From a virus, in IMG/VR virus record IMGVR_UViG_3300032116_000260, positions 1 to 54,849 of that record: a DNA stretch of 54,849 nt. One strand, written 5' to 3'. The translations under genes and the position numbers were made by a program. Below the pieces are notes generated by a model. It saw only the letters and a list, made by a program, of their open reading frames with translations, was not told the origin of the DNA and made no database searches. Positions within the stretch are counted from its first letter, which is position 1; every line of letters begins with the position of its first letter. This document shows, in pieces, positions 3,038-37,692 of this stretch.

Positions 3038-3559
3038 TTAATCTGGAGGGGGTTCACTTATAATAAAAGACTTTATGCCGGGCATTTGTTTCTCAGCATC
3101 GTCTAGACTTTTTTGATTTCCAAAATAACCTCCTTCAGGAAACTCAATACTAATTACTTGATAATAAGGATTATTTTGAAACTTATCAAAAGTATTTTTA
3201 TCAATTTCTCTTATTAATATGGGGTTAGAATTAATTTTTTTAGAAAAATATCTTATGCCTCCATTAATATTACTTTTATTAATAATAGAAGTAGGAATAC
3301 TATTATTTAATTTTACTTTACTTAAAGATCCATAAATAAATGTTTTTGGATCTGTTAGTAGAGGATTTATATCTGTACTGTTTGCTTTAACTAGTTTTGG
3401 AGCATTAGTATTAAATGTTTTTCCTGCAAAGTATTTTCCATTAAATTCATAATAGTATCCTTGATAATATTTGTAATTATAATCAAATACGAATTCATTA
3501 CCAGAGGTATATTTTGTTTCTATTATGTTTGATGGTATTCTCATATTAAAAAGGTGCAT
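3038..3559 (-). CDS. Unknown baseplate-associated protein
   Basis: 173 residues, rich in Asn, Lys, Tyr and Phe, ending in PPPD. It is the last gene of the baseplate run and overlaps the 3' end of the hub gene by 14 bases. A second in-frame ATG at 3544 (MRIPSN) would remove the overlap, leaving a one-base gap; neither start has a Shine-Dalgarno sequence, so the choice is open. No membrane segment or catalytic motif is visible. Context suggests a virion part or an accessory of the hub lysin. Confidence 0.6.
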   Translation of the reverse strand: MHLFNMRIPSNIIETKYTSGNEFVFDYNYKYYQGYYYEFNGKYFAGKTFNTNAPKLVKANSTDINPLLTDPKTFIYGSLSKVKLNNSIPTSIINKSNINGGIRYFSKKINSNPILIREIDKNTFDKFQNNPYYQVISIEFPEGGYFGNQKSLDDAEKQMPGIKSFIISEPPPD

Positions 3560-22093: not shown

Positions 22094-25000
22094 TTAGTTT
22101 ATTCTTTTTAGGTATCCGTCTGGGTTGAAAGTAGAATTGGTTCCAAAATAATCACACCAATGTCTGTCTATAACAAAATCAGAATTTGTTTGCAAAAATT
22201 CATTAATAGCTTTACGAGGCCCTCCATTGTAAGTATCAGAAAGACCAGTAAAATCAATCACTCCATCTTCAACAATAAAGTAAGAATCTTTAGATACAAT
22301 TTTACTAAATTTATTTAGGGATTTTAATACATCTTCATAAGTGTGAGATCCATCATCTATAACTAGTATTTTTTCAAACCCTTTAGTATTTTTTTCTATA
22401 TCATATTCTTCAAAACCACCATAGAAAAACTTAATTTGACTATGATTAAATACTTTTTGATCGTGTATTTCATTATAGAGATTAATTGTATGAACTTCTC
22501 CTTTTCCTAATAAATACAACAAATCAGCATAATATAAAGCTCCCCCACCCATATAGGTTCCGATTTCTATGATTAGGTCTGGTTTAATAGACATAATTAG
22601 CATTTGGTAGAGAGCATAATCCATAGGGCATTTTAAATAGGGAACCTCCTTATATTGTACTGCAAAATGTCCACTATATATGTCTTGTAAATTTATATTA
22701 GATTCATGTACTAGGAAATTTTTATTCACATCTGGGTAAGCAGAGGTTATTACTTGGCTTTGCTTTGTAGTTACTTCTACTTTCCAGTCATGGCTTCTTT
22801 CTCCATAGGCACCATTGGGGGTAATTCTATAAACTCCTCCTACCCATTTATCATTTCTTCCTTTTCCTTTTTCTAAAAGTATAGTATTTAATGCCCAGTA
22901 AGCATCAAAAACATCTTCATGGAAAAACCAATCAGGGAATTCCATGTCTTTAATAAGATTATTTCTAAACATAAAACCAAAAGAAATATAATTGGCTTTC
23001 ATGTTATCTCTTAAGATTACCTCTCCTTTTATACCCCAATAATAACTACTCATGAAATTATCATCACCAGGATTTTTTATATAATATCCAACACTGTAAA
23101 CAGAATATTCTTTATTATTCTTTAAAAAGTTTATCTGTTTTTGTAATTTACTTTTATCGACATAGTAATCATCACCATCTAGAATAGTAACATATTCAGA
23201 ACTAATTTTCTTTAAAAGATCATAGGTCCTACGAATGACAGCTCCTTGATTTTTTTCATTTCTGTGTAGGATTACATTTGGAATATCTTTATATTTTTGT
23301 ATGATATTCCAAGTATTATCTGTAGAGCAATCATCAGATATTAAGATATTGAAGTTAAATAATGTTTGTTGCATTAAAACACTATCAATACATTGTTCAA
23401 TATATTCTTCATGATTGTATGTAGGAATAAGTACAGTTAGTAACTTTTCCTCAGGAGATTTTTTAGCAAAAATAGTTCCAATAGGAGAAGATTTATATGC
23501 TTCTTCTATAATACTGTTGTTGTTTTCAGTATTTTGATCCCTAATTTGATCAACATCAAATCCCTTTTTAACTAAGGTTTGAATTAATTTTTCTACTCTT
23601 TCACCTTCATTATCATGAAATTCTATAAGAAGATTATCTATTTTTTCAAAAATTTCATCTTCAAGATTTTCTATAATATCATATTCAGCCCCTTCAATAT
23701 CCATCTTTAATAATGATAATCTTTCAATATTATTTTGATCAAAGAATGTTTTTAAAGACACAGCAGGTACAGTTATTTGTTTTACCTCACTACCATTATT
23801 TTTAATATGATCTTCAGATATACTTCCGATTGTAGTATTACTTGGGTCTATATAGAAAGTAAGATCTTCATCTTTAGTGTATATAGCTTTATCTATTACT
23901 TCTACATTTAAATCTTTTACTAAGCAATTCAAATTAATTAACGATTCTTGATTAGGTTCAAATGCATAAACTTTTTTAGCTCCTTTATTAATTGCTAAAA
24001 GTGAAAATAATCCACTATTTGCTCCAACATCAAAAACAGTTTCCATTTTATCTAACTCATAGCAATCATATTTGTTCTGGAGGAACATTTCTCGATAATT
24101 GTTGAATAAACAATCAAATGGATTATCAATATTTAGTTTTACTTCTTTTTTAATAACATTTTTAACAAATAAATCCTTTAAAAATAAGAAGTTATCATTT
24201 TCATCATAAAATTCAACCGTTATAGTTCCTACAGCCGGGTCAGTAGCAAAATTTATGGATGATGTTGGTGTTGGAATTACCCACCAACTGCTATAGTTTA
24301 TAAAAGTAACGGGAAACCAATAGAGAGGAGCATTAGAATCTTTTTCCTTAATAGAAATTTTATAGGAATTAGGTTCAGCCCTTTTATAATTTATCGAAAT
24401 TTTATTTTCTTCAGGTTGAATATCAACATCAAAATAATTGCTTATGCTATTTGTGTTCATTTTTATATTTAGTTTGTTTAATATTTTTTCTATGTTTTGA
24501 TTTTTATCACTAAAGTTTAAATATTCAATATTATCGTACTTATTAAAGTAGTTTAAATATACGTCCAAATTATAAATTAAAGAAGGAACTCTCCAACTAA
24601 TAGCTTCTCTAATTACTAAAGGCATTGTTTCTTTATCATTGATATGTCCTCTAGAAGTAAATAAGAATAGATCAGCCATTTGATAAAATGCATCTACATC
24701 ACTTCTTTCTCCCCACCATTTACAGTTAGGAGGAAAATCCTTCATTATTGGTTCCCAATAATATTTAAAATTATCAGCTTGATTACCAATAAAATGGAAT
24801 TGAATTGGATAATCCTGCATTTGTTTTGCGTATTCAACAACTTCGGCTTGATTTTTTCTAGAGGTAAACAAACCTACATTAATAACATGTTTTTTATTAG
24901 GATCTAATCCTAACTCAGCTAATAATTCTTCTCTAGATTTTGTTTTTGTTTTGTATTCAATTGGGTATTCTACTAATTCACAAGGTATATTCAATGGTTT

Positions 25001-25423
25001 ATATGCTTCAACTTGATATTGACTAACCATTGCAAAGTGATCAGGAAAGTGTTTTTTATTTGATATATCAAAACTAGAATCATGAGAAGTTTCAACTATC
25101 TTATATTTTCTATTTGAATTATATAACTTTACAGCTAAATCATATGGCATAAACATTTCAGGAATTTCCTGGAGGTGAATAACATCTGGGTTTATTTTTT
25201 CAATATGTTCAAATAGTTTTTCTCTGGGTTCTCCTAGGGTAATTAGTCTGTTTCCCAATAAGTTGACGACTCTATTACGTTGAACTACTAAAACACCCCC
25301 TGTAATGTTATCCCATTCAATACACCATACTTCACAACTTTCATTTAAAACCTCCATTTGTTTGTAAAGGTATTGAGGCATTCCTCCTGTAGATAGGTGA
25401 GGAGCAATAAAAAGTATTTTCAT
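22094..25423 (-). CDS. Four-domain fusion: GT4, FkbM methyltransferase, GT2, CmcI-like
   Basis: 1109 residues. (1) Residues 1-~330: GT4 transferase (FIAPHLSTGGMPQYLYKQME, KHVINVGLFTSRKNQAEVVE, MPLVIREAISWRVPSLIYN). (2) ~440-605: FkbM methyltransferase (TVFDVGANSGLFSLLAINKG, YAFEPNQESL, LKMDIEGAEYDIIENL). (3) ~660-880: GT2 transferase (LTVLIPTYNHEEYIEQCIDS, ISDDCSTDNTW, TILDGDDYYV). (4) ~925-1109: a class I SAM-type domain like cephalosporin hydroxylase CmcI (LIIEIGTYMGGGALYYADLL, KILVIDDGSHTYEDVLKSL). A beta linker domain lies at ~330-430. Such a fusion would add and methylate sugars in sequence on one acceptor. Bacteria usually encode these as separate proteins. Confidence 0.8.
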   Translation of the reverse strand: MKILFIAPHLSTGGMPQYLYKQMEVLNESCEVWCIEWDNITGGVLVVQRNRVVNLLGNRLITLGEPREKLFEHIEKINPDVIHLQEIPEMFMPYDLAVKLYNSNRKYKIVETSHDSSFDISNKKHFPDHFAMVSQYQVEAYKPLNIPCELVEYPIEYKTKTKSREELLAELGLDPNKKHVINVGLFTSRKNQAEVVEYAKQMQDYPIQFHFIGNQADNFKYYWEPIMKDFPPNCKWWGERSDVDAFYQMADLFLFTSRGHINDKETMPLVIREAISWRVPSLIYNLDVYLNYFNKYDNIEYLNFSDKNQNIEKILNKLNIKMNTNSISNYFDVDIQPEENKISINYKRAEPNSYKISIKEKDSNAPLYWFPVTFINYSSWWVIPTPTSSINFATDPAVGTITVEFYDENDNFLFLKDLFVKNVIKKEVKLNIDNPFDCLFNNYREMFLQNKYDCYELDKMETVFDVGANSGLFSLLAINKGAKKVYAFEPNQESLINLNCLVKDLNVEVIDKAIYTKDEDLTFYIDPSNTTIGSISEDHIKNNGSEVKQITVPAVSLKTFFDQNNIERLSLLKMDIEGAEYDIIENLEDEIFEKIDNLLIEFHDNEGERVEKLIQTLVKKGFDVDQIRDQNTENNNSIIEEAYKSSPIGTIFAKKSPEEKLLTVLIPTYNHEEYIEQCIDSVLMQQTLFNFNILISDDCSTDNTWNIIQKYKDIPNVILHRNEKNQGAVIRRTYDLLKKISSEYVTILDGDDYYVDKSKLQKQINFLKNNKEYSVYSVGYYIKNPGDDNFMSSYYWGIKGEVILRDNMKANYISFGFMFRNNLIKDMEFPDWFFHEDVFDAYWALNTILLEKGKGRNDKWVGGVYRITPNGAYGERSHDWKVEVTTKQSQVITSAYPDVNKNFLVHESNINLQDIYSGHFAVQYKEVPYLKCPMDYALYQMLIMSIKPDLIIEIGTYMGGGALYYADLLYLLGKGEVHTINLYNEIHDQKVFNHSQIKFFYGGFEEYDIEKNTKGFEKILVIDDGSHTYEDVLKSLNKFSKIVSKDSYFIVEDGVIDFTGLSDTYNGGPRKAINEFLQTNSDFVIDRHWCDYFGTNSTFNPDGYLKRIN

Positions 25424-25443: not shown

Positions 25444-25629
25444 TTATATTTCATTATTAATAGGAGCGGCTTTATATTGTCTTTCTGTTGGATCAGCTGA
25501 TTGTAATTCAGCTGCTTTATCTATTGCCTCTTGTTCAGTAGGGTAGATATATTCTGGGTCATTTGGGTTTAATTTGGCAACCCAAATTTGATCGTTTCCA
25601 GGGATAAATTGCATTAATACTATATACAT
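25444..25629 (-). CDS. Small unknown protein
   Basis: 61 residues, MYIVLMQFIPGNDQIWVAKL then a helix with a TEQEAIDKAAEL pattern. It starts on the last base of the upstream glycosyltransferase gene and is followed 20 bases later by the large fusion gene. No motif recognised. Confidence 0.5.
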   Translation of the reverse strand: MYIVLMQFIPGNDQIWVAKLNPNDPEYIYPTEQEAIDKAAELQSADPTERQYKAAPINNEI

Positions 25630-26585
25630 TATTGTTTATTTATACTGTTATAAATATCATTTATATTAAACATTTCATTTGCATCTATATAAGGACATTC
25701 ATGTAATATACCATCTAAATTATAATCAAACATATATGAATCGATTAATTTAAGACCACCTTGTTTTGGTGGATTTGCTACAATATTGTTATGGATATCA
25801 TATCCAAACACAACAGGTGATGTACCAACCCATAACACAGTTGATGGAAGTTTAAAAGCAGCCGCGGCATGTTGCATGCAAGAATCAATTAATACACGTT
25901 TTTTAGCGTTTACCATCATAGCAAACAATTCCATATTCGTCATTGCTTTATCTATTACTTCAACACCATCTAATTTTTGTGAATCAGGTCTAGTAATTTG
26001 AAATATATGGTAATCTTTTTTATACTTATCTACTATTTGTTGAGAATAATCATACGGCATATCTCTAGCCCAAGAATAACCATATTTTTGACCAGTTAAT
26101 GGACCACCATTAGTTTGTAATATCATTGTTGGTTTATCTCTTAACCACAAACCAGTAGTCATTTTTTGAGCCATATTGACAAATATCTGTGGTTGTTGTC
26201 CCGTATAAGGTATATTTAAAATATCACACCAATTGTTTATCAGGTGTTTTCTGCGCAGAATATGGTCAGTTTGGTTATATGGTTCTTGTTTAAAGAAAAG
26301 CGTATCTTTATCTTTTATATAATCATCATAAAAGTAGGATTTATTTCCTGAGAAATAAACTCTATCAATAAATGGATTATTTAGAAAACATTCTGGATGA
26401 GATACAACCATAATTAATTTTCTATCGGGGTATGTTTCTTTTATTGTTTGGCATAGTGCTGTTGCAGCAATATTTTTTCCTAATCCTCCATCAATATGCC
26501 AAACTAAATATTTTTCTGTTTTTGGTGTTTCCGGTACAGAAATAATATTACCTTTTTTCTTCGCTTGGTAAGTGTATCCTTCCAT
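25629..26585 (-). CDS. GT9-like (heptosyltransferase-type) glycosyltransferase
   Basis: 318 residues. YLVWHIDGGLGKNIAATALC is the N-terminal acceptor-side motif of family 9 transferases, YPDRKLIMVVSHPECFLNNP the second strand, and LIDSCMQHAAAAFKLPSTVL with WVGTSPVVFGY the donor-side motif (a site usually reading DSGxxHxAAAL). It lacks the second, Cys-rich region of the 698-residue protein. It is coupled to an oxygenase gene on one side and to the 61-residue gene on the other, each by a single shared base. Confidence 0.7.
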   Translation of the reverse strand: MEGYTYQAKKKGNIISVPETPKTEKYLVWHIDGGLGKNIAATALCQTIKETYPDRKLIMVVSHPECFLNNPFIDRVYFSGNKSYFYDDYIKDKDTLFFKQEPYNQTDHILRRKHLINNWCDILNIPYTGQQPQIFVNMAQKMTTGLWLRDKPTMILQTNGGPLTGQKYGYSWARDMPYDYSQQIVDKYKKDYHIFQITRPDSQKLDGVEVIDKAMTNMELFAMMVNAKKRVLIDSCMQHAAAAFKLPSTVLWVGTSPVVFGYDIHNNIVANPPKQGGLKLIDSYMFDYNLDGILHECPYIDANEMFNINDIYNSINKQ

Positions 26586-27247
26586 TATCCTACTTTATTA
26601 AATAATAATTCAGTTAAACTATGTTCATCACCAATTTTACCTTTTGGTAAAACATTAAATGCTAAACTTTTCCTTGTTAATTTACTTTTATTTACAGGAA
26701 CAGAGTGAAATACATAAGAGGGAAATAACAATAATAATCCTGGAGTGTAATTAACTGAAAATGAATCCCAAGCGTATTGTGATTTTCTTCTATCTGATTG
26801 ATATTTAGGTGCTAGGTAAGAAACATTTGTTCCTACAATTGGTTTATGAAATGAAATTGCAGGAATATCTTCATCTTCCTCACCATAATAAAATACACCT
26901 GAAATTAGGCTATTAGGGTGAGTATGCATTGTGTGGTGTTGGCCTGGGGATTTGTGTGAGATCCATGATTGTGAGAATGCATATTCATCGTATGCATACA
27001 TCAATATTTCTTTTGCAAAATGGAGTAAGGATTGCATTATAAAATCAGCTAATGGTTTGCATTCTTTATGTTCTAGAATATAAGTATCTTTTGAATGAAA
27101 ACCATATTCGCTTGCTTTACCTCCATCAATTAACTCACAGCTATCTAGATGTTTAATTGTTTTATCTAAATCACCATCAGTATAGACTGCTGTAAACAGA
27201 GGTGATGGAAATAGAGGTAATACTTCAATTGTTTCTTTATTTAGCAT
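26585..27247 (-). CDS. 2-oxoglutarate/Fe(II) oxygenase 1
   Basis: About 220 residues from the ATG at 27247 (MLNKETIEVLPLFPSPLF); an in-frame TTG at 27256 is less likely. HTMHTHPNSLISGVFYY carries the metal-binding histidines, LLLFPSYVFHSVPVNK the distal His, and TRKSLAFNVLPKG the Arg that binds 2-oxoglutarate. This is the pattern of the phage and bacterial oxygenase family often annotated TIGR02466. It overlaps the next oxygenase gene by 11 bases and is clearly related to it. Substrate unknown. Confidence 0.75.
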   Translation of the reverse strand: MLNKETIEVLPLFPSPLFTAVYTDGDLDKTIKHLDSCELIDGGKASEYGFHSKDTYILEHKECKPLADFIMQSLLHFAKEILMYAYDEYAFSQSWISHKSPGQHHTMHTHPNSLISGVFYYGEEDEDIPAISFHKPIVGTNVSYLAPKYQSDRRKSQYAWDSFSVNYTPGLLLLFPSYVFHSVPVNKSKLTRKSLAFNVLPKGKIGDEHSLTELLFNKVG

Positions 27248-27890
27248 AACGTCCAAATATTATTTCACTAATAGTTTCTTGATCACCTAATGTACCTTTA
27301 GTTAATGCATTAATACCTAATGCTTTTCTTACTCTATTAGTATTATTAGGAGGAACACCGTGCATCAAATGCGAAGGAAATATAATAAGATTATTCTGCT
27401 TAGGTTGAAAGTATATTTCTTCTTGTGAATAAAGATGATCTTGATAATCAGCACATATTGAAGGTTCTAAATAGGAACGATGATATGATCTTACCTCTTT
27501 ACTAAAACATATTGCTGAGTCTCCTTCTTGTACGTCATAGTAAAATACACCTGCAATTAGTGTGTTTGGGTGAGTGTGTGCTTTGTGAAATTGCCCTGGC
27601 ATTTTGTATGTTAGCCAGGATTGGGCAAACTGTAATTCATCATATGCATATCTCATAATGCCAGTAGCAAATTGATTGAAATGATACATTACAAAATCTG
27701 CTAATGGTTTACAAACAGGATTATCAATTATATAACTATTTTTAGAGATCATTCCATAGCCACTACCGTGTGCTTCATTCATTTCACAACTATCAAGGTA
27801 TTTTACTATTTCAGTTGTGTCACCGTCATATGTTGTAACATATAATGGTGTAGGAAATAAACTAAAAACATGCACATTATCCTTATTCAT
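27237..27890 (-). CDS. 2-oxoglutarate/Fe(II) oxygenase 2
   Basis: 217 residues. The layout equals oxygenase 1: SLFPTPLYVTTYDGDTTEIV at the start, FHKAHTHPNTLIAGVFYYDV with the metal site, LIIFPSHLMHGVPPNN with the distal His, and RVRKALGINAL with the 2-oxoglutarate Arg. Shared motifs such as KYLDSCE / KHLDSCE show a tandem duplication. Two bases separate it from oxygenase 3. Confidence 0.75.
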   Translation of the reverse strand: MNKDNVHVFSLFPTPLYVTTYDGDTTEIVKYLDSCEMNEAHGSGYGMISKNSYIIDNPVCKPLADFVMYHFNQFATGIMRYAYDELQFAQSWLTYKMPGQFHKAHTHPNTLIAGVFYYDVQEGDSAICFSKEVRSYHRSYLEPSICADYQDHLYSQEEIYFQPKQNNLIIFPSHLMHGVPPNNTNRVRKALGINALTKGTLGDQETISEIIFGRYAK

Positions 27891-27892
27891 AT

Positions 27893-28480
27893 TTAAGCAT
27901 TTAAAGGAACAAAATTAAAAGCTACAGATATTCTTTCTTTATGACTTTCATTACGTTCAACATGGTGTTTAACCCAACTGGGAAATAAATAGAATGTGGA
28001 TGTTTTAGCTTGTTTGCTACAATTAAGAGCATTTGCCATTGTTTGCTCATTAATGTCTTTTAAAAAGAACTCAGCATTATCTCCTCTATGCAATACTAAA
28101 TCACCCATATTTTCATCAGGTACATCTACATAATATACTCCGGACAGTACACTTTTTTGGTGGTCATGGAGTAAATTATAGTCATGATGACCATTAATAT
28201 TAATCCATAAATTACCAAATTTTAATTGTGTACCTGTATAACGATAGCAAACATCATTTACAAACACAGTCATATCATCTATTAGTGTTTGGAGTGAATC
28301 GGGTACGGGAAAAAGTAATTCGTTGCTGTGCCACCCTCCTCTATTAGAGATAGTAGCACCAGGTTTCTTTTCACGTACTTTTAAACAGTATTGTTTAATT
28401 TCATCGTTATCAATTCCAGAAACAGGACATTCCCACACTGGTGTTGCAAACCATAATTGTTCAAAAACCTTAAATTCCAT
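27893..28480 (-). CDS. 2-oxoglutarate/Fe(II) oxygenase 3
   Basis: 195 residues, same family as 1 and 2 but more distant. It starts FEQLWFATPVWECPVSG. LLHDHQKSVLSGVYYVDVP holds the metal site, FYLFPSWVKHHVERNES the distal His, and ERISVAFNFVPL the Arg and last strand. All ligands are present, so an active enzyme is expected. Confidence 0.75.
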   Translation of the reverse strand: MEFKVFEQLWFATPVWECPVSGIDNDEIKQYCLKVREKKPGATISNRGGWHSNELLFPVPDSLQTLIDDMTVFVNDVCYRYTGTQLKFGNLWININGHHDYNLLHDHQKSVLSGVYYVDVPDENMGDLVLHRGDNAEFFLKDINEQTMANALNCSKQAKTSTFYLFPSWVKHHVERNESHKERISVAFNFVPLNA

Positions 28481-28492
28481 AACTATTATTTA

Positions 28493-29107
28493 TTATCTAA
28501 AGGGACGACCCCCTGTCCAAAAAACCAAACATTTTCTTGTTCCTTTTGTTATTGGTTTTACTCTATGCATACAGAAAGCAGGAAAAATAATTACATCACC
28601 TTTCTCTCTTGGTACAGTAACAAAACCATCTTTACCACCCATCCAAATTTCAAATTCACCACCTTCATAATCAGTTGAATCTGATAATTGAACTGTCATT
28701 GCTAGTTTTCTTTTATTAACACCATATGCTCCAACATCCATATGCCAATCAAGATGACCTCCGTCTTCAGGATAAATAACATAGTGAATTGGATCAGTTA
28801 CAACATCAATATCAAAATGAAATAAAGCATCGTTTGCTTGTAGTGCTAAAGGAAATAATAATTCATATAACCATTGAGAATGATTTGCTGGGGTGATGTA
28901 GGCAATATCTCTATTGTTTGTTCTGTAAGCATCTGTATCTGTACCTAATTCAGCAACACCTGTTCTGCCTTTAGAGAATTTGTAATTAGCATAAACCATA
29001 TCCTCTAATTCTTTGATCATTTGATCATTGAATACATTTTTAAAATAATAAAAATCATTCCAATTAGAAGTTGGTTTGAAATCGTTGTATGGTTTTAAAG
29101 GAAACAT
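28493..29107 (-). CDS. 2-oxoglutarate/Fe(II) oxygenase 4 (prolyl-hydroxylase type)
   Basis: 204 residues. DWHMDVGAYGVNKRKLAMTV gives the HxD pair, DYEGGEFEIW the typical following strand, IFPAFCMHRVKPITKGTRKC the distal His and Arg, ending FWTGGRPFR. This is the PKHD/P4H-type pattern, a different branch from oxygenases 1-3. Members hydroxylate protein side chains or small molecules. Followed after 12 bases by oxygenase 3. Confidence 0.8.
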   Translation of the reverse strand: MFPLKPYNDFKPTSNWNDFYYFKNVFNDQMIKELEDMVYANYKFSKGRTGVAELGTDTDAYRTNNRDIAYITPANHSQWLYELLFPLALQANDALFHFDIDVVTDPIHYVIYPEDGGHLDWHMDVGAYGVNKRKLAMTVQLSDSTDYEGGEFEIWMGGKDGFVTVPREKGDVIIFPAFCMHRVKPITKGTRKCLVFWTGGRPFR

Positions 29108-29110
29108 AAC

Positions 29111-29695
29111 TTACTTTTTATAATGGGTATACCACCCTGTAAAAATATATTTTGTTTGTGTTGGTGAAGGAATTCCTCGGTGGGTATGAGTCCAATCAGT
29201 AGGCCAAATTAATAATTTGCCTTGTTCTGGTTGCTCGACATGATTTTGGTAATAGAATTGAGTTCCACCTCCATCATTTACTGTATTAAGATAAACCATC
29301 CAAACAAGCACTCTTGCCGAAGCAGGAATGCCTGCTCTTTCACAGTGCCACCCATAAAATGCTTCCCCAGGCTCATAGCGTTGCATATTAAATAAGGTAT
29401 CTAATCTAAAGTCATCCATTTTTTGGAATGCTTGCTCGTGTCTAAAAATATACTTTGATATATTTTCTTCAACAACATCAACTAGATATCTTAAAGGTTT
29501 TCCCCAATCTGGGTGTTGTAGAAAGGTTGGATCAAAAGAAATATCCATTGATTTCTTCACATCGTGCTTTTGTACAACTTCTTCATTGTACCTAAAAGCA
29601 CCAGGTTGCTTTAATGGAGATTGCTCAAATAATTCTATAACCTCTTCACAAAACCCAGGATCTAAAGCCTTAGGGTTTGAATATATAAATTGCAT
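29111..29695 (-). CDS. 2-oxoglutarate/Fe(II) oxygenase 5
   Basis: 194 residues. FYGWHCERAG gives an HxE metal pair (Glu in place of Asp), VYLNTVNDGGGTQFYYQNHV the core strands, and LLIWPTDWTHTHRGIPSPTQ with TKYIFTGWY the distal His and co-substrate side. This pattern is common in T4-like phages of aquatic bacteria. The gene shares one base with the 228-residue coiled-coil gene upstream. Confidence 0.75.
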   Translation of the reverse strand: MQFIYSNPKALDPGFCEEVIELFEQSPLKQPGAFRYNEEVVQKHDVKKSMDISFDPTFLQHPDWGKPLRYLVDVVEENISKYIFRHEQAFQKMDDFRLDTLFNMQRYEPGEAFYGWHCERAGIPASARVLVWMVYLNTVNDGGGTQFYYQNHVEQPEQGKLLIWPTDWTHTHRGIPSPTQTKYIFTGWYTHYKK

Positions 29696-30381
29696 TACTG
29701 CTTATTTTGTAACTGTTTTTGTGCCATAACTGCTTCGTGAGTTAAAGCATTTTGTTGTTTCAAACGCTCCATTGTTTGAAGCTGTCCCATTACATTTGCT
29801 ACTTCGGTTGGGTCTGAGTGTTCATTTAATGCGCTTGCTCTGTAGGCTAATCTATGGTGTAAGCTAACGGCTTGATGTGTATTTACTTCTTTTGTATCAA
29901 ATGACCCATCATCCAATTCTGTTTTTAATTTAGACCAAGTTTGAATTTCACGAACACGATCGTGAGCTACTTGTTCCATACAAGCTTTATTATATAGATT
30001 TTGATCTAAATCAATTTGAAGTGACATAATCTCCAATTGATCAGCAGCTTCTTCAGCTTCTTTCATTTTTTTCTCTAATTTAAGGCGTTCAACAGTTGAA
30101 CGTCTCATATCAAATGAAAGATTCATTAATGCATCAAAGTGAGCTGACATTTCTCTAACTGATTGCCAGTACTTAGCTGCTACTGTTGGAAATTTACCAT
30201 CGTTAAGAACTGAAACACGCATTTCGGTTTCTGTTCTAAAGATTTGTTTCTTATTCCAGTTGTCAGCTAATTCTTCTTTTAATTGAAGAATTTGTTGTGC
30301 ATCATTTGGTTTAAGGATAGCAAGGATGTTCTTTAAATCTTCTGTAACTTGTATTTGGTTGTTTTCTGTGTTTTCAGACAT
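29695..30381 (-). CDS. Coiled-coil protein of unknown function
   Basis: 228 residues, mostly helical and charged (STVERLKLEKKMKEAEEAAD, LQTMERLKQQNALTHEAVM), no membrane segment. It heads the oxygenase run and follows an ATATTTA(G) element and a hairpin. A scaffold, chaperone or fibre-assembly helper is conceivable from composition and from its place between fibre genes and oxygenases; no family recognised. Confidence 0.6.
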   Translation of the reverse strand: MSENTENNQIQVTEDLKNILAILKPNDAQQILQLKEELADNWNKKQIFRTETEMRVSVLNDGKFPTVAAKYWQSVREMSAHFDALMNLSFDMRRSTVERLKLEKKMKEAEEAADQLEIMSLQIDLDQNLYNKACMEQVAHDRVREIQTWSKLKTELDDGSFDTKEVNTHQAVSLHHRLAYRASALNEHSDPTEVANVMGQLQTMERLKQQNALTHEAVMAQKQLQNKQ

Positions 30382-30420: not shown

Positions 30421-30447
30421 TTGTACTTCCAAATTAAGGAAGTACAA
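30421..30447 (-). terminator. Hairpin at end of fibre unit
   Basis: Perfect 10-bp stem TTGTACTTCC/GGAAGTACAA with a 7-base loop that contains the stop codon of the 84-residue gene. The sense strand continues ATTTAG, without a long U run, so a weak terminator or mRNA 3' stabiliser. Confidence 0.55.
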
Positions 30448-30688
30448 TTGGTTGAGGATAAGGCATTCCAGATTCAGCAGTCCAATCTGCTTGTGCTTGT
30501 GCAACAACAGCATCAACAGCAGCTTGTGCTTCTGCTTGTGTTTTTTCAATAGCACTAACACGTGTTGCCCAAGTTGTGTTTTCAGTTACCCAAATATCGG
30601 CAGGATATCCCGCAACGTGAGCTAATTCGTTATCTTCATGGGTAATGAATCCTTTACCCCAATTAGTAGCTTGATAATAATAAGGCAT
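30434..30688 (-). CDS. Small unknown protein downstream of propeller fibre
   Basis: 84 residues: an N-terminal aromatic part (MPYYYQATNWGKGFITHED), a WVTENTTWATRV stretch, an Ala/Gln-rich helix (TQAEAQAAVDAVVAQAQADW) and a Pro-rich end. It follows the 1732-residue fibre gene after 22 bases. Small genes in this place are often fibre-assembly helpers, but nothing specific shows that. Confidence 0.55.
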   Translation of the reverse strand: MPYYYQATNWGKGFITHEDNELAHVAGYPADIWVTENTTWATRVSAIEKTQAEAQAAVDAVVAQAQADWTAESGMPYPQPIVLP

Positions 30689-30703: not shown

Positions 30704-30711
30704 ATAAATAT
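30704..30711 (-). promoter_or_regulatory. ATATTTAT element before 84-residue gene
   Basis: Sense GATTAATATTTATTGTAAAT, 15 bases before the ATG; it touches the stop codon of the fibre gene. Confidence 0.4.
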
Positions 30712-33700
30712 TAATCTAATAAAATAAAATATGTTCTGCCTCTAGCAGCAGCTGCTGATTCATAGAATGTCCAAAATATTGATGCTTGAGAAGAAGCAGC
30801 ACCCAATGTTGGGTTAGAAAAGTATGAAGCAGTAGTTAAAATTCTAAATTCACCTCTTACACTTTGGTTAGTAATTACAGCGCCACCCGTAGTACCATCA
30901 GCAGATATTGTTGTATAGTTAGCTGTTGGTGTAAAAGTAGTAGTGTTTGTATTCTCAAATGCAACCCCTCTTATAAATAAATAGTTACCACTACCACTAG
31001 TTAAGTTGGCTAAGTTTATACGAAGAGGTTGGGAAGTACCACCAGCTGCAGAAGATGTTACAGAACCTGTATAAGCGATGGCCCGCTGATCTGTAACAAA
31101 TCTCCATCCAGTTGCTGCTTTGGCAGTAATAGATGCTGTAAAAGAAGCTGTGATTGCTGTGCCTGCAGGTATATCGTATGAAGCTGTTAAATAAAATAAA
31201 GCTAATGTTGAACCTGCACCTGCAGCATCGTTTGATGAACGTTCTGATATTTTTGACCATGTATTTCCTATTCCTGCAGCATCAACTGAACCGTTTGAAT
31301 TAAGTTTGATGATACGATTTGGTTGTGGGGAGAATGAAGCAGAGTATGTTGTAAAACCACCTACTGCTATGATATCATCATCGGAGTGGATGTAATAATC
31401 TTCTACGTCTACTGCTGCGCCGAAGCCAGAACCTATGTTGAATGTAGTGTCTCTTGATCCACTTAATGATAAACGAACAGAACCACTAAATGTTGAACCA
31501 GAGAATTGAGTAAATGTACCTCCAATTAAAAGAGTATCTTCAGATGAGAAATATTCTTCAGTGCAAGAAACAATGGTTGGAGTACCTCCTCCAAAAGCTA
31601 AACCTGCATCTTGAGTGCCAGCTCCTGCTAATTGAATTCTACCAGTAATTAAAGCACCACCTGCTGTCCAAGTAGACCCATCATATTCTTCTGTACAACT
31701 TAGACTAGGAGATATAGCATCTCCTCCTCCTACAGCTAAAGCGGCGTTTTGTGTACCTGCCCCTGCTAAACTATTTCTAGCAGTAATTAAAGTACCACCT
31801 GTTGCCCATGAAGTACCATCATATTCTTCGGTACATGATACTGCAACTGAAACAAATCCACCAAAAGCAACAGCAGCATTTTGGGTGCCATCACCATTTA
31901 AATATTGTCTAGCAACTATTAAGTTCCCTCCGGCTGTCCAGGTAGAACCATCATATTCTTCTGTGTTATTTATGCATGCAGGAGCCGGTGCCCCAATACC
32001 TCCACCCATAACTAAAGCAGCATTTTGGATTCCTGCACGACCCATAAGCGCTCTAGCAGTAGCCATAGTTCCACCTGAGGCCCAAGTAGATCCATTATAT
32101 TCTTCACTAATTCCTGTAGCTGTATTAGGTCCAACAAGAAGTCCACCAGCTACTAGAGCAGCATTTTGAGTACCCATACCTACTAACCAATATCTTGAGG
32201 TAATTAAATTACCTCCTGAAGACCAGGTAGACCCATTATATTCTTCTGCAAGATTACCAGCTGGAACACCTGGACCTCCACCAGCTGTTAAAGCAGCATC
32301 TTGGGTTCCGGTGCCGGCAGCAACTTCTCTAGCAGTAATTAAAGCGCCTCCTGCCGTCCAAACATCAACACCACTAGAAGGATAATTCACAACAACACTC
32401 CCAGTGTTATTCAATCCAGCACCAATAGAAGCAGAAAATGCAGTATCTAATGTTCCATCAGTATTAATTTTTACTATACGGTTTATATTTGAACCGGAGT
32501 ATGCTGTAAACGCTCCTACAGCAACGATGCTGTTGTCTGGTAGAACAGCGATGCTGTTGGCGGCTGCGTTGAAGCCTGCGCTACCTATGTTGAATGATGA
32601 TGTTGAGATGAGGTCACCGGTAAGTGCATTGAGGAGAGCAATACGGTTACGTGTTGAGCCTGAGACTGAGGTGAAATTGCCTACTGCAAATAAGGAGGGG
32701 CTGTTATATTCTTCAGTACAAGTAAGAACCCCAGAAAATCCCCCACCAACTGCTAATGCTGTGTTTTGAGTGCCTACACCTGCTAGACTAAATCTATAAG
32801 TAATTAAATTATTACCATTCACCCAAGAAGTACCATCATATCTTTCTGTAGAAAATTGTGTAATTGGTGTTTGAGATGATCCTCCAAATGCAAGAGCTGC
32901 ATTTTGAGTACCTGCTCCTCCTAAATCAGTTCTAGCACAAGCCATAGTACCACCGGCTATCCAAGAGGTACCATTATATTCTTCTGTGCATGATAAACGA
33001 ATTGTTGGACCCACCTGTGAAAATCCTCCAAATGCTAAGGCTTCATTTTGAGTACCTACACCTCCTAAATACCCCATAGCAGTAATTAAATTACCACCTG
33101 TTGTCCAAATAGACCCATTATATTCTTCTACACTAGACCCAGCAGGTGTAAATCCACCAATAGCTAATCCTGCATTTTGGGTGCCTGCTCCTGCTGAAGC
33201 AAATCTAGAAACAATTAAATTACCGCCTGCTGTCCAAGTAGAACCATCATATTCTTCTGTGCATGATACTGTTGTTGGTGTTTGTCCTCCAAAGGCTAGG
33301 CCTGCATTTTGAGTGCCGGCGCCTGCTAGATTATCTCTAGCATTAATTAAAGCACCACCTGCTGTCCATATAGAACCATTATATTCTTCAGTGCAGGATA
33401 CTGCTACTGAGGGAAAACCTGTGCAATCTCCACCAAAAGCTAAAGCTTCATTTTGAGTGCCGGCGCCTGCTAGATTATCTCTAGCAGTTATTAGAGCTCC
33501 TCCTGCTATCCAAGCACCGCCATTATAAAATTGATAACATCTTACATCAACCGGACTAAAGCCATCGCCTATATTGAATGATGTATCTATAGCTCCACCT
33601 CCATCAATACGAGCACTACCACTGTAGGTAATACCGTTGTAGCTGGTGAAGGCGCCGCCGAAGATGAGTTTGTTTGTGTATGTTGTACCAGTAATAGTAT

Positions 33701-35909
33701 ATTCTTCGGTGCATGCTACTGTAACGGGAACTGGTGTTGCTCCACCAAAAGCTAAAGCAGCATTTTGGGTACCGGCTCCTGCTAATGAACTTCTAGCAGT
33801 AATTAAAGTACCTTTTGCTGTCCATGAAGTTCCGTTGTATTCTTCTGTGCATCTGAATGTTAAACTTATAGTACTTCCACCAAAAGCTAATGCTTCGTTT
33901 TGTGTCCCAGCACCTGCTAAGCCTGCTCTGGCAACGATTAGTGTTCCTCCGGCTGCCCAAGTAGATCCGTTATATTCTTCTGTGCATCCTATTCGGATTC
34001 CTAGTGTATCTATTCCTCCAAAGACTAAAGCTGCATCTTGAGTGTCGGCACCTACTAGGCCAGATCTAGCAGTAATTAAAGTACCTCCTACTGTCCATGA
34101 AGTACCGTTGTATTCTTCTGTGCATGCGGTATTGGTAGGAGATACAAATCCACCAATAGCTAAAGCGGCGTTTTGTGTACCTGCCCCTGCTAAACCATTT
34201 CTAGCAGTAATTAAAGTACCACCTGTTGCCCATGAAGTACCATCATATTCTTCTGTACAGGACAAACTTGTTGGATTATTTCCACCAAATGCTAATCCTG
34301 CATTTTGAGTACCGGTGCCTGCTAAGCTTGATCTGGCAACGATTAGTGTTCCTTCGGCTGCCCAAGTAGATCCATTATATTCTTCTGTACATGTTACATC
34401 TGCTGGGTTTGATCCTCCAAAAGCTAATGCTTCGTTTTGTGTCCCAGCACCTGCTAAGCCTGCTCTGGCAACGATTAGTGTTCCTCCGGCTGCCCAAGTG
34501 GCACCACCAACATATCCACCAGCAACATCTTGTACAATTATAGTACATACAGTATTATCAAAACCAGTACCTACATTAAATGATGGATCTTCAGTACCGT
34601 CTGGGTTAAGGCGAATAGCACCATTAGGTATAGTGCCTACTGCTATGATTTTGTCTGAGATGCAAGTGGATGTTGTTGTGGCTGTGTATTCTTCTGTGCA
34701 TGCGGTATTGGTAGAAGATACAAATCCACCAATAGCTAAAGCTGCATTTTGAATACCAGCTCCAATATTAGCAGATCTAGCAGTGTTAAAAGTAACACTT
34801 ATTGTTGACCAAGTAGTACCATTATATTCTTCTGTGCATGTAGCAGGGGCTGTGCCGCCAAAGGCTAAAGCTTCATTTTGAGTACCAGCTGCCGCTACAA
34901 TTCTAGCAGTATTCAAAGCACCACCAGTTGACCAAGAAATACCATTATATTCTTCTGTACATGTTCTTGCGATTGGTGTTCCACCACCGATAGATAAGGC
35001 TGCATTTTGGGTTCCTGTACCTGTTGCAGAATTTCTAAATGAATTAATTATGCTACCACCAGTAGTCCAAGAAGTACCATTATATTCTTCTGAAAGTCCT
35101 GGTGAGCTAGCAAGAATACTTAATCCAGCATTTTGGGTGCCTGTTCCTGCTGCATCATATTTAGCAATAGTCATTGCTCCTCCAGCTGCCCAAGTAGATC
35201 CATTATATTCTTCCGTAATAGTTTGTTGTGTAACTGCTGGGAGTGTAGTAGTTCCTCCTGCAGCTAAGGCTGCATTTTGGCTGCCAGCTCCTCCTATATA
35301 TGATCTAGCAGTAATTAAGTTACCTCCTGCAGACCATGCAGATCCATTATATTCTTCAGTTAGATTACAAACAACCGAGCTGAGATCGCCTCCAAAAATT
35401 AAAGCTGCATTTTGAGTACCAGCGGATGTAAGATCTGCTCTAACATTAATAAATGCTCCTCCTACACTCCACACTCCGCTTCCACTATAATAAGACCCAG
35501 TTACATTAGGTTGTATAGCTAATTTAAAAACGGAGCCATCAACTAATCTATAATTAGGAATAAAACTAGTATCTAAAGTTCCATCTGTATGTAAACGAAC
35601 AATATTAGGAGCATCTTGTCCATTATAAGTAGTAAAAGCACCACCAACCAATATTTTACCATCTGATTGTGATACTATTGAATATGCTGTATTATTAAAG
35701 CCTGTACCCTGCTGAAAGTTATAGTTAATAGCGTTATCCCTTACACTAGTAACAAAGTTTGTTGCTGTACCTGCTGCTGAGTTATCTGCTGCAATAAACA
35801 ATACTGCCAAATCACCAGACCGTATAGCTTGTGAAGAAGTAAATGCAAGCGTTGTACCTGCAATTTTATTGTTAGTTGCTGCAAAGGATCCTGAACTTAC
35901 TATTGCCAT
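30711..35909 (-). CDS. Giant adhesin: split beta-sandwich, 7 delta-60 repeats, 4 kelch blocks
   Basis: 1732 residues. Residues 1-60 (SGDLAVLFIAADNS..., TSVRDNA) and 1548-1732 (GNTWSKISERSS..., GWRFVTDQRAIAYTG) read as one beta-sandwich domain split at a loop. Between them lie seven delta-60 units, recognisable by KILVGGAFTTYNG and RLHTDGTLDTSF-type motifs. Units 2, 3, 4 and 6 are each interrupted at the same point, before the [IL][IVL]xGG strand, by a block of six kelch-like repeats (CTEEYNGTSW..GG..ITAR then GTQNAALAFGG). Delta-60 and kelch repeats both belong to beta-propeller families, so the model is a seven-bladed propeller bearing four six-bladed ones. Propellers of this kind bind glycans or proteins, so a receptor-binding fibre is likely. 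The gene lies between a collagen-like fibre gene and an 84-residue gene. Confidence 0.7.
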   Translation of the reverse strand: MAIVSSGSFAATNNKIAGTTLAFTSSQAIRSGDLAVLFIAADNSAAGTATNFVTSVRDNAINYNFQQGTGFNNTAYSIVSQSDGKILVGGAFTTYNGQDAPNIVRLHTDGTLDTSFIPNYRLVDGSVFKLAIQPNVTGSYYSGSGVWSVGGAFINVRADLTSAGTQNAALIFGGDLSSVVCNLTEEYNGSAWSAGGNLITARSYIGGAGSQNAALAAGGTTTLPAVTQQTITEEYNGSTWAAGGAMTIAKYDAAGTGTQNAGLSILASSPGLSEEYNGTSWTTGGSIINSFRNSATGTGTQNAALSIGGGTPIARTCTEEYNGISWSTGGALNTARIVAAAGTQNEALAFGGTAPATCTEEYNGTTWSTISVTFNTARSANIGAGIQNAALAIGGFVSSTNTACTEEYTATTTSTCISDKIIAVGTIPNGAIRLNPDGTEDPSFNVGTGFDNTVCTIIVQDVAGGYVGGATWAAGGTLIVARAGLAGAGTQNEALAFGGSNPADVTCTEEYNGSTWAAEGTLIVARSSLAGTGTQNAGLAFGGNNPTSLSCTEEYDGTSWATGGTLITARNGLAGAGTQNAALAIGGFVSPTNTACTEEYNGTSWTVGGTLITARSGLVGADTQDAALVFGGIDTLGIRIGCTEEYNGSTWAAGGTLIVARAGLAGAGTQNEALAFGGSTISLTFRCTEEYNGTSWTAKGTLITARSSLAGAGTQNAALAFGGATPVPVTVACTEEYTITGTTYTNKLIFGGAFTSYNGITYSGSARIDGGGAIDTSFNIGDGFSPVDVRCYQFYNGGAWIAGGALITARDNLAGAGTQNEALAFGGDCTGFPSVAVSCTEEYNGSIWTAGGALINARDNLAGAGTQNAGLAFGGQTPTTVSCTEEYDGSTWTAGGNLIVSRFASAGAGTQNAGLAIGGFTPAGSSVEEYNGSIWTTGGNLITAMGYLGGVGTQNEALAFGGFSQVGPTIRLSCTEEYNGTSWIAGGTMACARTDLGGAGTQNAALAFGGSSQTPITQFSTERYDGTSWVNGNNLITYRFSLAGVGTQNTALAVGGGFSGVLTCTEEYNSPSLFAVGNFTSVSGSTRNRIALLNALTGDLISTSSFNIGSAGFNAAANSIAVLPDNSIVAVGAFTAYSGSNINRIVKINTDGTLDTAFSASIGAGLNNTGSVVVNYPSSGVDVWTAGGALITAREVAAGTGTQDAALTAGGGPGVPAGNLAEEYNGSTWSSGGNLITSRYWLVGMGTQNAALVAGGLLVGPNTATGISEEYNGSTWASGGTMATARALMGRAGIQNAALVMGGGIGAPAPACINNTEEYDGSTWTAGGNLIVARQYLNGDGTQNAAVAFGGFVSVAVSCTEEYDGTSWATGGTLITARNSLAGAGTQNAALAVGGGDAISPSLSCTEEYDGSTWTAGGALITGRIQLAGAGTQDAGLAFGGGTPTIVSCTEEYFSSEDTLLIGGTFTQFSGSTFSGSVRLSLSGSRDTTFNIGSGFGAAVDVEDYYIHSDDDIIAVGGFTTYSASFSPQPNRIIKLNSNGSVDAAGIGNTWSKISERSSNDAAGAGSTLALFYLTASYDIPAGTAITASFTASITAKAATGWRFVTDQRAIAYTGSVTSSAAGGTSQPLRINLANLTSGSGNYLFIRGVAFENTNTTTFTPTANYTTISADGTTGGAVITNQSVRGEFRILTTASYFSNPTLGAASSQASIFWTFYESAAAARGRTYFILLD
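31548..32372 (-). repeat. Kelch block 4 (six repeats)
   Basis: Six copies of a ~46-residue kelch-like unit interrupt delta-60 unit 6, from VWTAGGALITARE to SCTEEYF. The last three copies are the most alike (SCTEEYDG[TS]TW or SW). Boundaries are approximate. Confidence 0.7.
32697..33520 (-). repeat. Kelch block 3 (six repeats)
   Basis: Six kelch-like units interrupt delta-60 unit 4, from AWIAGGALITARDN to LTCTEEYN. One unit reads FSTERYDG in place of CTEEYNG and one reads SSVEEYNG. Boundaries are approximate. Confidence 0.7.
33675..34505 (-). repeat. Kelch block 2 (six repeats)
   Basis: Six kelch-like units interrupt delta-60 unit 3, from TWAAGGTLIVARAG to ACTEEYT. This is the most uniform block, also at the nucleotide level (for example nearly identical stretches near 33890-33990 and 34430-34500), which points to recent duplication or conversion. 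Boundaries are approximate. Confidence 0.7.
34667..35474 (-). repeat. Kelch block 1 (six repeats)
   Basis: Six kelch-like units interrupt delta-60 unit 2, from VWSVGGAFINVRAD to ACTEEYT. The most diverged block: several units have LTEEY, ITEEY or LSEEY instead of CTEEY. Boundaries are approximate. Confidence 0.7.
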
Positions 35910-35922
35910 AACTTGTTTATAA

Positions 35923-37692
35923 TTATTTTATAAAATCAACTTGCACACCTATTTCTGTTAGAGAACCAGTAAAGTTTACTATATTAAAATATAATGTATC
36001 TCCTATATTAAAATTTGTATTTTGTAATGTTGAGCTTGATACCCAAGATCCAGTTATGTTAACGGAAAGGTTTGAAGCTAACAAAGTAGTTGCAGCAGTA
36101 TTTTTAAATGCATTTACTACTAAACCAGATCCACTATCTCTAAATCCTGCTACTAAACTAGCTGTGCAGGTAAATGGAGCTCTCCATCCTACAAATGAGC
36201 CTGTATCGGATTGAGCAACAAGGCTATTATTAATTATGACAATTGATTTAGAGAAGCTAGTAAAACCAGCACTTATACCACTGGTACCACTACTTCCTGT
36301 TTGACCACTAGTGCCGCTTGAGCCTGATGTAATACCAGGAGCGGATGTGCCTGAGGTGCCACTTGAGCCTGTTTGACCGCTTGTACCGCTTGAGCCTGTT
36401 TGACCTGAGGTGCCGCTTGACCCTCGTGTGCCACTAGTGCCGCTTGATCCGCTTGTTCCGCTTGAACCATTTTGACCAGAAGTACCACTTGAGCCAGTTT
36501 GACCAGAAGTACCGCTTGAACCTGTTTGACCGCTTGTACCACTTGAACCGGTTTGACCTGAAGTACCGCTTGAACCTGTTTGACCACTTGTGCCGCTTGA
36601 GCCTGTTTGGCCTGAAGTGCCGCTTGAGCCAGTTTGACCGCTAGTACCACTACTGCCTGTTTGACCACTTGTGCCACTCGAGCCAGTTTGACCGGAGGTA
36701 CCGCTTGAACCTGTTTGACCGGAGGTACCGCTTGAACCTGTTTGACCTGAGGTGCCGCTTGAGCCATTTTGGCCTGAAGTACCGCTTGAGCCGTTTTGGC
36801 CACTAGTACCACTTGAGCCTGTTTGACCAGAAGTGCCACTTGAACCGTTTTGGCCGCTAGTACCGCTAGAACCTGTTTGACCGCTTGTGCCGCTTGAGCC
36901 ATTTTGGCCTGAGGTGCCGCTTGAACCATTTTGACCAGAAGTGCCACTTGAGCCTGTTTGACCACTAGTACCACTAGAGCCATTCTGACCTGAGGTGCCA
37001 CTTGAGCCTGTTTGGCCGGAGGTGCCACTTGAGCCTGTTTGGCCGGAGGTGCCACTTGAGCCTGTTTGGCCGGAGGTGCCACTTGAGCCTGTTTGGCCGG
37101 AGGTGCCACTTGAGCCTGTTTGGCCGGAGGTGCCACTTGAACCGTTTTGGCCGCTAGTGCCGCTTGAACCGTTTTGGCCTGAGGTACCGCTAGAGCCTGT
37201 TTGGCCGCTTGTGCCGCTTGAACCATTCTGGCCTGAGGTGCCACTTGAGCCTGTTTGGCCGGAGGTGCCACTTGAACCGTTTTGGCCGCTAGTGCCGCTT
37301 GAACCTGTTTGGCCGCTTGTGCCACTTGAGCCTGTTTGACCTGAGGTGCCGCTTGACCCCCGTGTGCCACTAGTGCCGCTTGAACCGCTAGTACCACTTG
37401 AACCATTTTGGCCTGATGTGCCAGAAGAGCCTGCAGTACCACTAGTTCCACTAGTAGCAGCTGTATATGAAGTTCCGTTTATATTGAGAGAACCAGTTAT
37501 GTTTACTGAGCCCGTAAATTGATGTGTGTTACTTGATAGGCTACCAAAGCGAGTAGATCCTGTTACAAAATCAATAGATGAAGTTATTGTTTGTACATTA
37601 AGTGTTTGAGCAGTAATTGTATTAGTTACAACTACACTACCTGTAACACTTAAATCGTTAAAACTACCCGAATCTGTATAAAATATTGGCAT
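35923..37692 (-). CDS. Collagen-like tail fibre protein
   Basis: 589 residues. Residues 1-80 form a short beta module (TNTITAQTLNVQTITSSIDF, NITGSLNINGTSYTAAT) that also occurs in the 2357-residue fibre. Residues ~82-472 have Gly at every third position, built from the nine-residue unit GSSGTSGQ(T/N), about 130 Gly-X-Y triplets almost without proline. The last ~117 residues (SIVIINNSLVAQSDTGSFVG..., IGVQVDFIK) are a compact beta domain, probably the tip. Such fibres trimerise as a triple helix. The many Ser and Thr are candidate sites for the neighbouring sugar transferases (inference). Confidence 0.8.
   Translation of the reverse strand: MPIFYTDSGSFNDLSVTGSVVVTNTITAQTLNVQTITSSIDFVTGSTRFGSLSSNTHQFTGSVNITGSLNINGTSYTAATSGTSGTAGSSGTSGQNGSSGTSGSSGTSGTRGSSGTSGQTGSSGTSGQTGSSGTSGQNGSSGTSGQTGSSGTSGQNGSSGTSGQTGSSGTSGQNGSSGTSGQNGSSGTSGQTGSSGTSGQTGSSGTSGQTGSSGTSGQTGSSGTSGQTGSSGTSGQNGSSGTSGQTGSSGTSGQNGSSGTSGQNGSSGTSGQTGSSGTSGQNGSSGTSGQTGSSGTSGQNGSSGTSGQNGSSGTSGQTGSSGTSGQTGSSGTSGQTGSSGTSGQTGSSGTSGQTGSSGTSGQTGSSGTSGQTGSSGTSGQTGSSGTSGQTGSSGTSGQTGSSGTSGQNGSSGTSGSSGTSGTRGSSGTSGQTGSSGTSGQTGSSGTSGTSAPGITSGSSGTSGQTGSSGTSGISAGFTSFSKSIVIINNSLVAQSDTGSFVGWRAPFTCTASLVAGFRDSGSGLVVNAFKNTAATTLLASNLSVNITGSWVSSSTLQNTNFNIGDTLYFNIVNFTGSLTEIGVQVDFIK
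36277..37449 (-). repeat. 27-bp tandem repeat coding for Gly-X-Y units
   Basis: Tandem 27-bp unit encoding GSSGTSGQT or GSSGTSGQN. Five successive copies near 37010-37140 are identical, while others differ mainly at third codon positions. Such an array can gain or lose units by recombination. Six-frame reading frames here stay open because of the repeat and are not genes. Confidence 0.85.

Follow-up and report, generated by a model that had tools for sequence, protein, structure and literature searches.

Kelch blocks within a delta-60 array within a split outer domain in a protein of a Flavobacterium-phage-like myovirus

A gene with three nesting levels

The window analysed here is the whole 54,849-nucleotide stretch of the IMG/VR virus record IMGVR_UViG_3300032116_000260, and its subject is a single gene whose 1732-residue product has three nesting levels: kelch blocks lie within an array of delta-60 units, and this array lies within a split outer domain (Table 1). 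The nested architecture, which an original prediction had proposed from the letters of the DNA, is strongly supported by repeat counts, by insertion points and by relatives that lack some of the inserts, at two of the levels. The gene is located between those for the major capsid protein (MCP; 50081-51694) and the sheath (13954-15663); two collagen-like genes precede it, and oxygenase and glycosyltransferase genes follow. Among phage records, the MCP and the sheath are closest to those of Flavobacterium phage immuto (60.8% and 52.3% identity), and the source is a Flavobacterium-phage-like myovirus.

The gene is identical over its 5199 nucleotides (nt) in three other assemblies. One of them, L008, matches the window without a difference over 18191 nt; the other two, L009 and L010, differ from it upstream by 47 mismatches and three gaps and have a shorter collagen-like gene, and L009 also lacks about 106 nt downstream of the gene. 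The gene has no exact direct repeat longer than one of 83 nt, which is less than the 150 nt of common short reads. Mis-assembly is thus unlikely.

Table 1. Positions of the nested-propeller gene, its parts and the two collagen-like genes in the window
Feature	Residues	Position	Strand	Basis
Whole gene, nested-propeller protein	1732 aa	30711-35909	minus	Identical in L008, L009, L010
Split outer domain, N-terminal part	1-59	35733-35909	minus	Aligns to start of unsplit L082
Delta-60 unit 1, uninterrupted	60-117	35559-35732	minus	DUF5122 / delta-60 match
Delta-60 unit 2, first half	118-137	35499-35558	minus	Position and L013 alignment
Kelch block A in unit 2, six repeats	138-416	34662-35498	minus	Anchor scan; block at equivalent L013 place
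Delta-60 unit 2, second half	417-447	34569-34661	minus	Weak delta-60 match, E 0.004
Delta-60 unit 3, first half	448-461	34527-34568	minus	Position and L013 alignment
Kelch block B in unit 3, six repeats	462-744	33678-34526	minus	Anchor scan; L013 counterpart modelled as kelch propeller
Delta-60 unit 3, second half	745-778	33576-33677	minus	Delta-60 match
Delta-60 unit 4, first half	779-794	33528-33575	minus	Unit uninterrupted in L013
Kelch block C in unit 4, six repeats	795-1068	32706-33527	minus	Modelled, pLDDT about 81-95; Z 34
Delta-60 unit 4, second half	1069-1102	32604-32705	minus	Delta-60 match
Delta-60 unit 5, uninterrupted	1103-1157	32439-32603	minus	Delta-60 match
Delta-60 unit 6, first half	1158-1178	32376-32438	minus	Unit uninterrupted in L013
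Kelch block D in unit 6, six repeats	1179-1455	31545-32375	minus	Anchor scan; PDB kelch sequence match
Delta-60 unit 6, second half	1456-1490	31440-31544	minus	Delta-60 match
Delta-60 unit 7, uninterrupted	1491-1546	31272-31439	minus	Delta-60 match
Split outer domain, C-terminal part	1547-1732	30714-31271	minus	Aligns to L082 after its N-terminal part
Collagen-like (GSSGTSG) gene, next upstream	589 aa	35923-37692	minus	Pfam Collagen 9.3e-57
Collagen-like tail-fibre gene	2357 aa	37709-44782	minus	PHROG tail fiber 3.7e-43; immuto gp052 weakly, 1.4e-5

Delta-60 units, kelch blocks and the outer domain

The presence of seven delta-60-type units between the protein ends, as predicted, is borne out by DUF5122 (PF17164), which matches seven stretches (E 1.3e-45; 153.7 bits against a cut-off of 27), and by an iterated delta-60 profile, which finds seven units in order with a weak match for unit 2 (E 0.09). 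Unit hits 1, 2, 3 and 5 are followed by gaps of 310, 302, 295 and 298 residues, which correspond to kelch blocks inside units 2, 3, 4 and 6; each block splits its unit ahead of the second strand. DUF5122 is described as a beta-propeller family in its Pfam entry and is the subject of a modelling paper (PMC8078820). A sequence search of the PDB with the delta-60 body returned chance-level matches only. Among 50,697 phage records, the delta-60 body, the outer domain and the 228-aa downstream gene found no match and kelch found one weak match, in Paenibacillus phage phiERICV, in a BLAST search whose low-complexity filter may hide some relatives.

The insertion points are best seen in an ortholog, L013, which has 1191 residues and the same neighbour genes; the same gene is also present in L015, a second contig. 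L013 carries kelch blocks at the places of A and B, whereas its units 4 and 6 have no insert. In unit 4 it reads YQFYSSSTCLLAVGNF where the window has YQFYNGGAW, block C and then EEYNSPSLFAVGNF, and in unit 6 it reads TSGSTDVILIGG where the window has PSSGVDVW, block D and then SSEDTLLIGG. The uninterrupted units thus place insertions C and D in the hairpin before the [IL][IVL]xGG strand, and the position of all four blocks agrees with the common insertion point that had been predicted. No empty site for units 2 and 3 was found in any ortholog. The difference at C and D reflects either a gain in the window lineage or a loss in L013. Other phages have delta-60 arrays without kelch, of 7, 14 and 21 units, and none of 48 distinct delta-60 open reading frames (ORFs) outside the window group has a kelch match at E <1e-3; conversely, delta-60 matches among the kelch loci are confined to the window and L013 genes. 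Kelch inside delta-60 is limited to two phage lineages among the loci examined.

Each of the four interrupted units was said to hold exactly six kelch-like repeats, and an anchor scan of the protein agrees, with 24 GTQN-type anchors in four groups of six and a repeat length of 42-48 residues for repeats that are not last in their block. The protein is matched by phrog_27227 (function unknown; 8.3e-181). In sequence comparisons with known kelch structures, block D matches the PDB kelch protein 9tsn (1.2e-9), block B matches the designed SAKe6BC (6.9e-12), and a profile of 26 blocks matches SAKe6FR (6e-21), KLHL12 (4.8e-18) and KEAP1 (1.3e-13). The blocks are a divergent kelch group, named so because they resemble kelch structures in fold and in sequence. 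Block A and its L013 counterpart are 41-42% identical, about the level of other block pairs, and a degenerate third repeat seen by eye in both suggests common descent. In addition, gene conversion is suggested by exact repeats, one of 83 nt within block B and two, of 57 and 38 nt, shared by B and D. In a search of genome contigs, which found no outer-domain relative, the sole kelch relative was L098, on a contig of a Methanothrix metagenome-assembled genome; this is perhaps a phage contig binned with that genome.

AlphaFold models were made for window residues 740-1732 and for the L013 protein without its last residue, with alignments built from kelch rows only; outer-domain and delta-60 rows were misplaced when added to them in a trial and were left out. 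Confidence, given as the predicted local distance difference test score (pLDDT), is confined to the stretches with deep alignments, namely block C in the window fragment and block B in L013. Block C (model residues about 58-333 of the fragment) has ten-residue mean pLDDT values of 81-95 and matches the kelch domains of NS1-BP (5yy8; Z 34.1, root-mean-square deviation (rmsd) 2.3 over 263 residues), the designed SAKe6BE (7onc; Z 34.0, rmsd 1.8 over 246 residues) and KEAP1 (several entries; Z about 32.5), and L013 block B matches SAKe6BE (7onc; Z 33.5, rmsd 1.8 over 242 residues). These kelch domains are six-bladed. Structure searches with both models returned kelch matches only, the rest of the models being barely tested by them. 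The predicted closure as six-bladed domains thus stands for block C and L013 block B: the model shows a kelch fold for block C, and each six-repeat block, including A and D by extension, is most likely a six-bladed propeller. Together, KEAP1, KLHL17, NS1-BP and SAKe6 resemble the blocks at Z about 32-34 over 238-264 residues with 22-29% identity; the window rings, in contrast, are grafted into a hairpin of another repeat domain.

At the outermost level, the two protein ends had been read as one domain cut near SVRDNA / GNTWSKI, and an unsplit relative confirms this. L082 (275 aa) aligns to the N end of the window protein and, directly after that, to most of the last 190 residues of the protein; near the join the alignment is loose. 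Against L082, the two ends together score 90.7 bits, compared with 66.5 for the C end and 27.4 for the N end by themselves, and 100 N ends that were shuffled and joined to the real C end reach at most 68.0 bits; hence the two ends belong to one domain. L082 has no Pfam family match at E up to 0.01, and the beta-sandwich fold of this domain is a conjecture of the original prediction. It lies directly after a gene read by eye as a portal protein, so that the outer domain is also present elsewhere in virion gene clusters.

Counting rules, variability and divergence

To what extent six and seven are family numbers can be read from other viral loci, with counting profiles that were built up from the repeats of the window itself and of near relatives. 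With duplicate ORFs and nine blocks truncated by contig ends left out, 120 complete kelch blocks were counted in the fetched viral loci: 92 have six repeats, ten have twelve and one has thirty. When the six that belong to the window and L013 genes are set aside, 86 of the remaining 114 have six repeats and 97 have a multiple of six; if each 80%-identity cluster is represented by one ORF, the figures are 77/105 and 88/105. A six-repeat block is present in 71 ORFs, 41 of which are single-propeller ORFs of <420 aa. Delta-60 loci came from two scans, one contributing 80 of 111 matches, and the count leaves out the window group, duplicate ORFs and any ORF truncated at the end of its locus. Seven units were found in 23 of 39 such ORFs, fourteen in four and twenty-one in two (a multiple of seven in 29/39); by cluster, seven were found in 18 of 32, fourteen in four and twenty-one in two (24/32). 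The model of the delta-60 part is not confident, so the closed ring is predicted from this seven-unit rule: judged by family counts in sevens, the seven units of the window protein most likely close as one seven-bladed propeller. The earlier view that the repeats are structured nested domains and not a random expansion also agrees with the four six-repeat blocks, the seven units and the relatives in which some inserts are missing.

Several loci in these families are of interest in their own right. L011 (6974-12709) has a 1912-aa ORF with 30 kelch repeats in one run, or five times six, and the region after it reads by eye as another tail protein. In other tail proteins, those of L016, L022, L024 and L025, kelch blocks of six repeats come after a motif such as MCIWFDTTSKMPMVSY and finish with EEYN-type strands, as if the same module had been grafted into another hairpin. 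L105 (471-3887) encodes a 1139-aa delta-60 protein without kelch in which 19 units were found, where 21 would make three propellers. L143 (4659-10897, on a 366-kb contig) has two adjoining delta-60 proteins with 123-177 residues between unit hits and no kelch match there.

Within the kelch blocks, variation is concentrated. When the 24 repeats are aligned, values of 2.7-3.2 bits are reached at two spots, columns 23-24, which come after the conserved R, and columns 40-50, which come after GG, wherever these are filled in most repeats, one proline column (1.0) excepted; other well-filled columns lie at 0-2.0 bits, and W, Q and the GG pair at 0-0.2. Aligned with a designed kelch protein, the first variable spot meets the RRSG position and the second the GGYD position, and both positions are presumably those occupied in KEAP1 by its ligand residues of the Ser363 and Tyr334 kind. 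Simulations of KEAP1 described in PMC6891428 have Ser363, Ser508, Ser555, Ser602, Tyr334, Tyr525 and Tyr572 interacting with ligands. On this alignment, the two variable spots would fall on the ligand face of kelch domains like that of KEAP1. Constant glycines and alanines in the repeats use two to four synonymous codons, which indicates that most repeats are not recent copies.

Compared with L013, the outer-domain parts are 60 and 72% identical, the delta-60 pieces 48-73%, and kelch blocks A and B 41% and 55%. Twelve other window genes were compared with the same locus and eight had a match. On the downstream side, the genes at 25629-26585, 27893-28480, 29111-29695, 29695-30381 and 30434-30688 are 88-94% identical; over the stretches matched by their own counterparts, the collagen-like genes are 80-85% and the glycosyltransferase 80.6% identical. 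The nested-propeller gene is more diverged than all eight.

Other features of the neighbourhood may be recorded here. The window has five 2OG-Fe(II) (2-oxoglutarate- and iron-dependent) oxygenase genes in a row (26585-29695); homologs of two of them (27893-28480 and 29111-29695) adjoin in L013, and the other three have no match in that locus. Near other glycosyltransferase genes, 22094-25423 encodes a 1109-aa protein composed of a glycosyltransferase, an FkbM methyltransferase, a second glycosyltransferase and a CmcI-type methyltransferase, which may modify virion or host glycans. The collagen-like gene at 35923-37692 has 572 codons between stops in L009 and L010 and 590 in L008 and the window. 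The 1126-aa protein of 3546-6926 has a C end that looks by eye like peptidase M15 or carboxypeptidase, and immuto has a gene annotated as carboxypeptidase after its tape measure gene.

Possible roles of a nested-propeller protein

The protein is probably a multivalent adhesin of the tail, or a receptor-binding protein, in which a delta-60 platform, itself nested in an outer domain, bears the kelch rings. It would be built as follows. The outer domain, formed from the two chain ends, would hold the seven-unit array in one loop; the delta-60 propeller would serve as the platform, with kelch rings set in the hairpin turns before the GG strands of units 2, 3, 4 and 6. Since the ends of a closed propeller are adjacent, a whole ring would fit into a hairpin without breaking the platform, which would explain the common insertion point, although recombination between delta-60 units would explain it too. 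The conserved repeat framework and its two variable spots would then give four binding rings per chain, with variable contacts around a pocket, and the rings would bind the bacterial surface, so that a protein from the tail-fibre cassette would help the virus to grip its host. From these features we infer incorporation into the virion, ligand binding and a part in adsorption, and it is reasonable to predict a receptor-binding role. A further idea, more tentative, is that aquatic phages use the six-bladed kelch ring as a plug-in binding cartridge, gained and lost in hairpins of unrelated tail proteins and present here in four of the seven blades of one platform propeller, with gene conversion among blades and blocks.

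A number of observations weigh against this interpretation. The profile search that had been proposed as a check succeeded for DUF5122 and for kelch sequences in the PDB, but no Pfam kelch family matches the protein at E up to 1, and the window protein scores 69.2 with TIGR02608 (delta_60_rpt), under the cut-off of 76.5 that L013 (78.0) and L089 (101.1) pass. The counting rules are broken by 17 of the 114 kelch blocks and 10 of the 39 delta-60 ORFs, part of which may reflect missed repeats. Mean pLDDT is 54.3 and 52.7 in the two models, in each of which the kelch alignment rows landed on one block; the delta-60 ring (ten-residue means about 41-75 in L013 and mostly 30-60 in the window fragment), the outer domain (lower still), block D and L013 block A have low confidence. 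L082 is the single unsplit outer-domain relative in all scans, and the mapping onto KEAP1 rests on alignment to distant kelch proteins. At some of the constant E, R and Q positions, a single codon is used throughout the repeats. As for divergence, block B (55%) is no more diverged than the halves of unit 2 (48 and 50%), the collagen-like genes and the glycosyltransferase also diverge beyond the 88-94% set, and fast divergence also fits relaxed constraint.

The same architecture could instead decorate the virion and bind glycans or particles weakly, in general adhesion, and not the infection receptor, and this we regard as unlikely but worth considering. It would fit the MCP-to-sheath region of immuto, which holds a tail fibre-like protein and two lectin-like Laminin_G_3 'structural proteins', and the place of L082 next to its portal-like gene; however, the window gene directly follows two collagen-like genes, one of which matches tail-fibre families, and it diverges beyond the eight other genes compared. 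Comparison with immuto, and with L105, where the delta-60 protein lies upstream of sheath and tube genes (both read by eye), places it among tail-fibre-type genes. Kelch domains are common protein-binding modules, and the propellers might bind other virion proteins in a structural spacer or a baseplate or neck part. PMC5259590 reports kelch-like proteins of giant phages, one of which, CBB_552, was found in the virion of phage CBB, and matches in BFVD include virion structural proteins of PhiPA3, Noxifer and Phabio. Nevertheless, interfaces within the virion should be conserved, yet blocks A and B have drifted far between the orthologs and two of the four blocks are absent from L013, which makes a spacer improbable.

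Two further explanations were rejected. Kelch-fold proteins include galactose oxidase, and one BFVD match is a protein of phage vB_PaeM_PS119XW labelled 'Galactose oxidase'; but the copper ligands of that enzyme include histidines, no histidine is present in any of the four kelch blocks, and the best structural matches are binding kelch domains and designed proteins, so an enzyme is very hard to credit. Equally implausible is that mis-assembly or recent repeat expansion made the blocks: the 83- and 57-nt exact repeats do speak for recombination or gene conversion, but the gene is the same in all four assemblies, six and seven are common counts in other phages, and the codons of the constant glycines and alanines vary.

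Among known systems, the giant-phage proteins (CBB_552 and those of PhiPA3, Noxifer and Phabio) are, as here, phage-encoded kelch propellers with fold matches in BFVD, but they are single matches to kelch stretches, and no kelch ring in a delta-60 array is described for them. Delta-60/DUF5122 proteins share the seven stretches of the window protein, and phage arrays mostly have 7, 14 or 21 units; unlike it, the 48 distinct ORFs carry no kelch. Immuto gp050 and gp051 share the MCP-to-sheath placement after a tail fibre-like protein but are Laminin_G_3 proteins of 220-233 aa with no significant kelch or delta-60 match; nor did thirteen immuto genes from head completion to sheath match kelch, delta-60 or outer-domain queries significantly. 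A kelch protein in a phage virion and DUF5122 as a beta-propeller family are already known. Kelch rings in several blades of a delta-60 propeller were not found in searches of records and literature; the literature searched, in which PMC9238414 is among the papers on kelch or propellers in phages, gave no case of a nested propeller, of a phage delta-60 protein or of a kelch domain in a tail fibre.

Studies of domain insertion usually deal with a single insert, and here one chain has three levels; because relatives without inserts exist at two of these levels, the order of assembly is readable and can be tested. The analysis also gives simple counting rules for two repeat families of phages, kelch mostly in sixes and delta-60 mostly in sevens. 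If the kelch ring is indeed a plug-in cartridge, the protein would be a combinatorial platform, whose valency (two rings in L013, four in the window) and specificity would shift by gain and loss of whole rings. More broadly, the finding points to a propeller-based class of tail adhesins in immuto-related phages and suggests a scaffold that carries whole binding rings in its hairpins.

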